NCBI RefSeq assembly: GCF_017921895.1
Contig: NZ_JAFIDN010000013.1
Coordinates: 27,216 to 91,215 of the forward strand
Reading direction: 5' to 3'
Length of the DNA stretch: 64,000 nt
Origin: Natronogracilivirga saccharolytica
GTDB lineage: Bacteria; Bacteroidota; Rhodothermia; Balneolales; Natronogracilivirgulaceae
Every line of letters begins with the position of its first letter. Position 1 is the stretch's first letter. This document shows, one piece after another, positions 18,855 to 21,496 of the stretch. Both the position numbers and the translations under genes were made by a program. Under the pieces are notes generated by a model, which saw only the letters and a list, made by a program, of their open reading frames with translations, searched no databases and was not told the DNA's origin.

Positions 18855-19556
18855 TCAGGAGTTTTGCAAGGTAACCGGCTGCAATGTCCCTTTTTTCAGC
18901 TCATAAATATTCGGAGCTATTTCCGCGATCCGGTGATCGTGAGTGATCAGAACAATGCCGGTACGTTCTTTCTGCTTCATTTCCAATAATACGGAGAGAA
19001 GCTTTTCGGTATTGCGCTCATCCAGATTTCCGGTTGGTTCATCAGCCATCAAAATCTCCGGTTCGTTCATAAGCGCTCTTGCTACAGCAACACGCTGCTG
19101 CTCGCCGCCGGAAAGCTCGGACGGGCGGTGATCCATTCTGTTTGAAAGTCCTGTCTGATCGAGAAGGTAACCGGCGCGGTCACGAATCTGGTTCATCGGT
19201 TTTCCTGCAATCAATCCGGGCATAAAGACATTTTCAAGAGCGGTAAACTCCGGGAGCAAATGATGAAACTGAAACACAAAGCCAATATTGAGATTCCGGA
19301 ATTTTGCAAGCTCCTCATCATTCATCTGTGCAAGATCTGCATTCCGGAAGTATATGGAGCCGCGATCGGGTCTGTCCAGGCCTCCCAGGATGTGAAGCAG
19401 GGTGCTTTTTCCTGAACCGCTTGCCCCTACGATGGCGGTGAGATCATTTTCATGAATTTCAAGATCGGCGCCGGTCAGGACTTCCACAGGTTCGGTTTTA
19501 CCCGTGTAGGTCTTGTGGATGTTTTGGGCTTGTAGTAATAAGTTTCCGGTATTCAC
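18855..19556 (-). CDS. lolD: LolD-type ABC transporter ATPase
   Basis: A 233-residue ABC ATPase: Walker A GASGSGKST at about residues 42-50, Q-loop VFQFHHLLPEFTALENV, signature LSGGEQQRVAVARAL, Walker B ILMADEPTGNLD, and switch histidine in THDHR. The ENVFMPGLI stretch is typical of the LolD/MacB branch. LolD powers extraction of lipoproteins from the inner membrane with LolC/LolE. No LolCE-type permease is nearby, so the partner is encoded elsewhere. Its start overlaps the ymdB stop by four bases (ATGA), indicating coupled translation. FtsE or MacB-type function is less likely but not excluded. Confidence 0.82.
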   Translation of the reverse strand: MNTGNLLLQAQNIHKTYTGKTEPVEVLTGADLEIHENDLTAIVGASGSGKSTLLHILGGLDRPDRGSIYFRNADLAQMNDEELAKFRNLNIGFVFQFHHLLPEFTALENVFMPGLIAGKPMNQIRDRAGYLLDQTGLSNRMDHRPSELSGGEQQRVAVARALMNEPEILMADEPTGNLDERNTEKLLSVLLEMKQKERTGIVLITHDHRIAEIAPNIYELKKGTLQPVTLQNS

Positions 19557-20368
19557 GATGATGCTTTGGTTTCAAAACCAGGAAAAGTAACGGGTTCTAT
19601 GCTGCTGCATTGGCCGGTTTCAGTGTCAATTTCCGTGACCAGTCCGCAAATGCGGTTGTCACCGTTGGCCATTTTGTATTTGTGCGGAGTCTGAATAAGA
19701 AAACGTTTTATTGCCGTTTCCTTATCCATACCAATAACGGAGTGGTAGGGGCCTGTCATACCCACATCGGTAATATAGCCCATTCCTTTCGGGAGGATCC
19801 GGGCATCGGCCGTCGGGATATGGGTGTGTGTGCCGGCCATAACGGATGCACGGCCGTCCACATACCAGCCGAAGGCCATCTTTTCCGCAGTTGCTTCGGC
19901 ATGAAAGTCGATGAAAATAATGTTGGTCTGTTCCTTTACCTTTTCGAGCACCCAGTCTGCAGTGCGAAACGGGTCGTCAATGGTTTGCATATATGTGCGG
20001 CCCTGAAGATTGACGACACCGATTTTTTGAGATGTGCCCGGAATATCATAGATACCGTATCCGAATCCGTGTGCTCCTTTCGGGTAATTCAAAGGCCGGA
20101 GCAAATTGGGATCGGTTTTCATGTACGGATAGATTTTCCATTTTGCGAAGCTGTGATTGCCACCGGTAATCACATGGACACCTAGTTTGTACAGGCTGCG
20201 GATGATCTCCTCATTGATCCCCATACCTTCATGCGAATTTTCTGCATTGGCAATTACAAAATCTGCGTTGTGTTTGCTAATAATGGAGGGCAGAAGTGTT
20301 TCCAGAAGTGAGAGGCCGGGAGAGCCTACTATATCACCGATGAACAGAACCTTGAGTTGTTGCGACAT
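19553..20368 (-). CDS. ymdB: YmdB-family metallophosphoesterase (TIGR00282)
   Basis: A 271-residue cytoplasmic metallophosphoesterase. N-terminal metal ligands are in LFIGDIVGSPG; ANAENSHEGMGI, GGNHSF and DFHAEATAEKMA with GTHTHIPTAD complete the dinuclear metal site. Family members such as Bacillus YmdB hydrolyse 2',3'-cyclic nucleotides and influence RNase Y. Here it follows zapA and the 6S RNA candidate, where Bacteroidota often carry rny, so a link with RNA turnover is plausible (inference). It overlaps lolD by four bases. Confidence 0.88.
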   Translation of the reverse strand: MSQQLKVLFIGDIVGSPGLSLLETLLPSIISKHNADFVIANAENSHEGMGINEEIIRSLYKLGVHVITGGNHSFAKWKIYPYMKTDPNLLRPLNYPKGAHGFGYGIYDIPGTSQKIGVVNLQGRTYMQTIDDPFRTADWVLEKVKEQTNIIFIDFHAEATAEKMAFGWYVDGRASVMAGTHTHIPTADARILPKGMGYITDVGMTGPYHSVIGMDKETAIKRFLIQTPHKYKMANGDNRICGLVTEIDTETGQCSSIEPVTFPGFETKASS

Positions 20369-20394
20369 GAAAAAAATCTCGGATAAATACAGAT

Positions 20395-20576
20395 AAAAAA
20401 AACGCTAATGAAGCAGGCACAATACAAGCTACCGTCATTGACAGTGCGGGCATCCACTCGCATCGGGTCTGCCTTCCACTATTCACATTGCGTGACATGA
20501 GGCCTGGCATTGCCGAACGAAGTTAAACACCCTTTTTTTTAAGTGTTGTGCTTGTTTATGTTAATCCTGCCTCAAA
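20395..20576 (-). ncRNA. ssrS: 6S RNA candidate (ssrS)
   Basis: The minus strand between zapA and ymdB can form a long rod of about 180 bases. GAGGCAGG (20566-20573) near the 5' end pairs with CCTGCTTC near the 3' end. Just inside, GCACAA faces TTGTGC. The transcript ends in a run of eight T residues (20395-20402). Length, terminal stem, U-run and the zapA-adjacent position are all typical of 6S RNA, which binds the housekeeping RNA polymerase. A full covariance search was not possible, and the central bubble was not modelled in detail. Confidence 0.6.
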
Positions 20577-20609
20577 AGCGTTTTTAACACTCACGTGTAT
20601 AACGACTAC

Positions 20610-20921
20610 TTAAATATCGTTATTCTCCCGCTCAATGTCATCCAATAATTCACGAAGTGAGTGATTTATTTCTGAGAAGATGGCCTGCTTTTCAGAATCG
20701 GTATCCGGAGTTTGATTTCCGTTTTCCAGAAAGAGCTCCTCTGCAATACTCAGGCTGGCAAGCACCATGATGGTTGAGTCGGATTGACTGGCCAGCGCCT
20801 TCCGGAAATCCTGAAAACGCTTGTCAACGTATTTTGCAATCTGATGCATCATTTCTTCATCCCCTTCATTGATCTTCAGGGGGTATTGCTTGCCGAGTAT
20901 GGATACCTTAATCGATTTCAT
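20610..20921 (-). CDS. zapA: Cell division protein ZapA
   Basis: A 103-residue cytoplasmic protein with the ZapA fold: beta-rich start KSIKVSILGKQYPLKI, then EEMMHQIAKYVDKRF and ASLSIAEELF, then a helical C-terminus. ZapA bundles FtsZ filaments at mid-cell. The upstream neighbour encodes a coiled-coil protein of unknown function, and 6S RNA follows directly, as in many bacteria. The start is the ATG at 20921. Confidence 0.88.
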   Translation of the reverse strand: MKSIKVSILGKQYPLKINEGDEEMMHQIAKYVDKRFQDFRKALASQSDSTIMVLASLSIAEELFLENGNQTPDTDSEKQAIFSEINHSLRELLDDIERENNDI

Positions 20922-21055: not shown

Positions 21056-21496
21056 TTATTGCCTGGATCGTTCAAGGTGTTTGTCTATTCGCCGGATCAG
21101 TTCCGTTATTTGCTGGCGAAGAACTACCTTTTCATTTTTGCCAAGCTCCGAAAAAAGGTCCTGTTCGACATCTGCAGTTGTTTTATTTGAATCAACATCA
21201 GAATGGGCAGTTGAAGTACCTTGCTCGGGTTCGCCGCCGGTTGAATGGCTGCTGCTGATCTCAGAGGACTCATTCTGCTCTTTGGCGGCTTTCAGCTGAT
21301 CAAGCTCCTCGCGAAGTCGCACCGTTTCCCTGCCGGACTCGGCGAGTTGTGATCTGACTTCTTTTAACTCATTGCTGAGTTTGCGATTTTCACTCTTAAG
21401 TGACGTTCTTTCTGTTTTCAGCTCGGACAAGCGGCTTTTCAGCTCACCAAGCAGATCACGAAACTCCTTGTAATATGACTCTTCGCGGTAACTCAC
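21056..21496 (-). CDS. Small coiled-coil protein between pheT and zapA
   Basis: A 146-residue hydrophilic protein. Residues 10-75 form a long heptad-type coiled coil (LGELKSRLSELKTERTSLKS and on to LREELDQLKAAKE), followed by a Ser/Thr/Glu-rich linker and a short C-terminal amphipathic helix (VVLRQQITELIRRIDKHL). No signal peptide or membrane segment is seen. Coiled-coil proteins of unknown function often sit between pheT and zapA in Bacteroidota-like genomes, so a link to the division ring (ZapB-like) is a guess from position only. Confidence 0.75.
   Translation of the reverse strand: MSYREESYYKEFRDLLGELKSRLSELKTERTSLKSENRKLSNELKEVRSQLAESGRETVRLREELDQLKAAKEQNESSEISSSHSTGGEPEQGTSTAHSDVDSNKTTADVEQDLFSELGKNEKVVLRQQITELIRRIDKHLERSRQ

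Follow-up and report, generated by a model that had tools for sequence, protein, structure and literature searches.

The element between zapA and ymdB in the DNA analysed here, a 64,000-nucleotide stretch from a Balneolales bacterium (the window), is very probably the gene of a divergent 6S RNA (ssrS), encoded on the minus strand. 6S RNA is a small RNA by which resting cells restrain their main RNA polymerase. The analysis revealed a homologous, conserved and covarying RNA that is positioned after zapA and ends in a U-run. A 6S RNA had been proposed at this place in an earlier reading of the letters (the sequence-only reading), and this identity is supported by homology: the fold covaries, orthologues are matched below threshold by the 6S model RF00013 of Rfam, and the matches of two models built here (R1 and R2) overlap with those of RF00013. 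The RNA resembles the RF00013 6S/SsrS family in its predicted length, in having a closing stem and an apical arm, and in a central bubble that has GGG and CCC at its flanks and a small hairpin on its 3' side. It differs in that the window sequence falls under the detection of the RF00013 model and in that the closing stem runs straight into the U-run.

Location and boundaries of the element

The gap between zapA and ymdB harbours, on the minus strand, a long closing stem followed by eight U residues (Table 1). ORF profiles, the fold and the eight U residues thus confirmed the earlier placement of an element with a terminal stem and a U-run between zapA and the next gene. The 3' end of the interval previously given (20395-20576) stands, but its 5' start is ~9 nt short, as the outer closing helix AAAAACGCU/AGCGUUUUU pairs 20585-20577 with 20406-20398. 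Measured from the stem start at 20585 to the end of the U-run at 20395, the predicted RNA is ~191 nt long. The earlier reading gave no strand. The minus-strand RNA folds at -77.1 kcal/mol (z -5.45), a value equalled by 0 of 200 shuffles. The plus strand, with -55.5 kcal/mol and z -2.95, is weaker than the minus strand but was likewise equalled by 0 of 200 shuffles, as a near-palindrome would be expected to show.

Table 1 Predicted parts and neighbours of the putative 6S RNA gene (window coordinates)
Feature	Position	Strand	Basis
Probable 6S RNA gene, predicted transcript ~191 nt including U-run	20395..20585	-	Fold, R1 match, covariation
Outer closing helix, 5' side AAAAACGCU	20577..20585	-	MFE structure
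Outer closing helix, 3' side AGCGUUUUU, continuing into the U-run	20398..20406	-	MFE structure
Main closing stem, 5' side GAGGCAGG	20566..20573	-	Both-sided changes in 6/8 helix pairs, n = 22 homologues
Main closing stem, 3' side CCUGCUUC	20410..20417	-	Covariation count
Central bubble, 5' strand; putative pRNA template here and in adjacent inner stem	20533..20549	-	Position in counted structure
Apical arm (GGG through CCC), including internal loops and the terminal hairpin	20448..20532	-	Helices 3-7, 97-100% of cells paired
Small hairpin in 3' strand of central bubble	20431..20445	-	MFE; helix 8, 95.5% of cells paired
Eight-U run 3' of closing stem, probable intrinsic terminator	20395..20402	-	Sequence
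zapA, upstream gene	20610..20921	-	Pfam PF05164 (ZapA), 68.3 bits
ymdB, downstream gene, metallophosphoesterase	19553..20368	-	TIGR00282, 282.3 bits over its cut-off; Pfam YmdB

Covariance model R1 matched the window at 20410-20573 on the minus strand with 183.1 bits, its sole match at E up to 10, a score to be read with the fact that R1 was built partly from the window element itself. The U-run is a general feature of these loci. All 32 loci examined have at least five consecutive T residues within 26 nt past the modelled stem. They represent 32 of the 33 genomes of the order with an R1 match, one locus per genome (G011, where the element lies at contig ends, was excluded). Upstream of the modelled stem, a [TGC]ATATT hexamer occurs within 50 nt in 9 of 10 loci of the sister family f4, against a shuffle expectation of 1.1 in 10. 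In 8 of the 9 loci having one, this hexamer lies 7-8 nt from the modelled stem, which is the usual spacing of a -10 element. Such a hexamer is also found in 16 of 17 loci of the window's own family (f1), but it provides no promoter evidence there because its distance from the modelled stem is 15-42 nt and it often overlaps the end of zapA.

A covarying fold and its relation to 6S RNAs

A DNA search of 97 relatives yielded 30 places in 29 genomes. At 21 of these places the element stands between zapA and ymdB; two further places are located at contig ends of G011, where one has only ymdB next to it and the other only zapA. The remaining seven matches, all short (L023-L029; 22-30 nt, E 0.002-0.008), had none of the five flanking genes nearby and were dropped as chance matches. 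An alignment of 22 homologues (A4), comprising 16 sequences of f1 and six of f4, was used to count a 6S-like structure of 43 base pairs. In this structure 97.2% of the cells are paired, and both sides have changed in 21 of the 43 pairs, accounting for 80 such cells. None of 500 shuffles reached the A4 values for paired cells, both-sided pairs or both-sided cells. When the 3' partners were slid by 1-3 columns as a control, 38-46% of the cells paired, a comparison in which the structure is favoured, having been derived from the same 22 sequences. A measure counting further pair types was non-decisive, being reached by 34 of 500 shuffles. The clearest changes are those of the main closing stem, which reads GAGGCAGG/CCUGCUUC in the window versus GGGCAGCG/CGCUGCCC in three f4 sequences. 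In a wider alignment of 33 sequences (A5), which was fitted to the model and leans towards it, both-sided changes were found in 36 of the 43 pairs. Closing stem, central bubble and apical arm are all present in the counted structure, with covariation. Some of the per-sequence MFE folds, the window's included, swap part of the apical arm for a competing hairpin. In the MFE fold of the window this hairpin forms between the 5' strand of the bubble and the apical arm; it is absent from the MFE folds of several relatives and was left unused.

That both strands beat their shuffles might suggest that the gap, being AT-rich, contains a palindrome that arose by chance. The compensatory changes over 22 sequences refute this explanation, which is also opposed by the model matches found in 179 of 296 genomes of the phylum and retains practically no credence.

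Direct comparison of the window with Rfam 15 gave no 6S match, neither over the window at gathering score nor over 20300-20700 (401 bases) at E up to 10, where the one match of any kind was a 12.4-bit hit of a streptococcal sRNA inside zapA. The Rfam cut-off, under which the window sequence falls, sets a limit for detection and does not define 6S RNA biologically. RF00013 (cut-off 46.4 bits) gave full-length matches in four of six sister-family loci, at the orthologous place and strand, with 30.8, 30.0, 25.9 and 19.8 bits, all four under the cut-off. The two best of these were also recovered by whole-genome search, where RF00013 produced two sub-threshold matches in total among the 97 relatives. 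In the window's own family, none of the six loci scanned was matched by RF00013. The covariance match to 6S RNA looked for since the sequence-only reading was thus absent for the window sequence itself and was obtained for orthologues elsewhere, mostly under the curated cut-off; homology to accepted 6S RNAs runs through orthologues and not directly. The model RF01685 of 6S-Flavo, an RNA described in Weinberg et al. 2010 (PMC2864571), had no match in the genome containing the window, but this is a weak negative, as it gave none in any control genome either. It was also without a match in the 12 loci (f1 and f4) and 17 further loci scanned, a difference from 6S-Flavo on account of which the element is not filed under that family.

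Outside the order the RNA was traced with R1, which matched 29 of 198 phylum genomes, five within the order and 24 outside, with 23 of the latter 24 matches being full length. In all 15 out-of-order loci examined, taken from these 24, zapA lies immediately upstream on the same strand, while the R1 model itself holds no gene information; in two of the 15 loci zapA was recognised only by a ZapA profile built here. One of these loci (L097) is matched by RF00013 above its cut-off at the same place (47.1 versus 46.4 bits), and two others (L107 and L110) have sub-threshold RF00013 matches at the R1 place. At E up to 1, RF00013 found nothing in 14 of 17 loci scanned, these 14 being 12 out-of-order loci and two of family f5.

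A broader model (R2) was built from 33 R1 matches. Together with the alignments it extends the reach to 179 of 296 phylum genomes, whereas RF00013, run over fewer genomes, matched 24 of 198, both at E 0.001; one of these 24 RF00013 matches is above the cut-off. All 24 RF00013 genomes also have an R2 match. Among the matches listed, all 21 genomes have the R2 match inside the RF00013 match and on the same strand; two of the 21 (G132 and G196) belong to the R2 training set and 19 are outside it. A gathering-level Rfam scan of 15 further loci (12 with R2 matches and three with sub-threshold RF00013 matches) gave nothing, indicating that these RNAs are far from the library model. On E. coli ssrS both models score at noise level, R1 with 5.3 bits in a partial overlap with ssrS and R2 with 4.5 bits inside it, so that the link to proteobacterial 6S RNA goes via intermediates.

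These scores on E. coli ssrS, and the lack of a direct Rfam match for the window element, could also fit a different structured RNA that has converged on the place of 6S RNA and on a similar shape. Such an origin is highly improbable in view of the graded similarity that leads from f1 through the sister family to RF00013 matches, all of them behind zapA in the loci examined. In E. coli, ssrS is likewise placed after zapA, but the next gene there is fau, whereas it is ymdB in the window. For Proteobacteria generally, the zapA-6S neighbourhood is described in PMC7641849. The Bacteroidetes 6S RNAs stem from the same phylum as the window element or from near relatives, and it is likely that the zapA-linked RNAs found by R1 and R2 are their counterparts; a difference is that rny follows in the out-of-order loci (10 of 10 checked). 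No literature on 6S RNA with Balneola, Balneolaeota or Rhodothermus was found in a search that had the survey of Wehner et al. 2014 outside its scope. Identification of the element as 6S RNA would add such an RNA to a lineage in which the public model is blind.

Proposed function and pRNA template

As a 6S RNA, the RNA would mimic an open promoter. By analogy, its central bubble would occupy the active site of RNA polymerase carrying the housekeeping sigma factor when growth slows down, and the polymerase would be released on using the 5' strand of the bubble as template for a short pRNA. In E. coli the pRNA starts at U44, on the 5' side of the bubble, and base 44 of the E. coli ssrS sequence is indeed a U. 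By position, the template in the window is guessed to be ACAAGCACAACACU. If transcription started opposite the U at ~20542, the first bases of the pRNA would be AGUGUUGUGCUUGU, and making this pRNA would melt the inner closing stem; the guessed template would give pRNAs beginning near AGUGUUGUGC. Polymerase binding and pRNA synthesis are inferred because they are known from 6S RNA in general and because a report on Bacteroides thetaiotaomicron presents a 6S RNA with evidence for pRNAs from dRNA-seq (PMC7366714).

The guessed template is part of a 23-nt run, UUAACAUAAACAAGCACAACACU, which shows no variation among 15 f1 sequences; the 16th f1 sequence (L017), differing there, was left out of this count. 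As a mark of the pRNA template this run is uninformative, since 138 of the 172 columns of the whole alignment are invariant anyway in the 15 sequences, versus 14 of 19 in the 5' strand of the bubble. The template is therefore a guess by position, and conservation does not single out ACAAGCACAACACU.

The downstream gene and distribution within Balneolales

The sequence-only reading had named the next gene as ymdB, which was borne out by its profile matches (Table 1). The YmdB matches with 81-87% identity carry Balneolales or Balneolaceae labels, which places the genome in Balneolales. The sequence-only reading had also pointed to ymdB standing in place of rny, and this holds: outside the order, the downstream gene scored above the RNase Y cut-off in 10 of 10 loci checked (of the 15 loci), while no RNase Y (TIGR03319) above cut-off was found in 30 Balneolales genomes. 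Weaker TIGR03319 matches are present in 24 of these 30 genomes and are mostly short stretches of larger open frames. Within the order, the RNA is followed by ymdB in those f1, f4 and f5 loci that showed both, at the place taken by rny in other families of the phylum. In the f2 genome G020 (L133 and L143), another gene comes after zapA and the RNA, and ymdB is located on a separate contig. This arrangement indicates that it is zapA, not ymdB, with which the RNA is associated. A former neighbourhood of rny and ymdB was unsupported, as no ymdB was found near three zapA-RNA-rny regions (L141, L142 and L144).

The change of the downstream gene bears on the possibility that the element has no function in trans and is merely the zapA operon's 3' UTR and terminator or a ymdB leader. 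Its position between co-directional genes and its terminal U-run would suit such a role. However, a terminator needs no covarying fold of 160 nt, the fold stays behind zapA while the next gene shifts from ymdB to rny, and in G020 it does so with ymdB on another contig. Relatives of the fold moreover coincide with RF00013 matches. A UTR or leader is thus very unlikely, and the 6S RNA reading is retained.

Among the 97 relatives, R1 matched 33 genomes: 18 of 20 in f1, 1 of 1 in f2, 10 of 11 in f4 and 4 of 4 in f5, and none of the 61 genomes of f3. The misses outside f3 are genomes G006, G015 and G040, which are 73-84% complete and in which no ymdB was found either. In f3, the family of the order with the most genomes sampled, zapA and ymdB are not accompanied by the RNA. 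In 15 f3 loci (L117-L127 and L129-L132) the gap between zapA and ymdB measures 3-88 nt in ten and 460-1178 nt in four, and one has no zapA in the stretch. R2 at E up to 1 found no match in 38 f3 genomes, while both non-f3 genomes, which are from the training set, were found. R1 at E up to 1 gave a single match in 20 f3 genomes, of 18.8 bits and E 0.99. The blank result of RF00013 in 20 f3 genomes is uninformative, since five RNA-bearing genomes were missed in the same search. Loss of 6S RNA in f3 is the simplest reading; relocation of the gene with strong divergence could be an alternative. One order with 6S-bearing families and one family apparently without offers a contrast for testing the need for 6S RNA.

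It may be speculated that Balneolales rebuilt a zapA-6S-rny arrangement, in that RNase Y was lost, YmdB took over its slot and a part in the turnover of 6S RNA and pRNA, and f3 then dropped 6S RNA, controlling its stationary-phase polymerase otherwise. This chain of events is considered unlikely. A functional link between 6S RNA and YmdB, suggested in the sequence-only reading, would have adjacency as its only basis. The apparent absence from f3 and the change from rny to ymdB are nevertheless parts worth following.

A coiled-coil-like protein without a Pfam family is encoded at 21056-21496, between pheT and zapA. Most of the homologous loci examined retain this protein there, either whole or as its C-terminal part.
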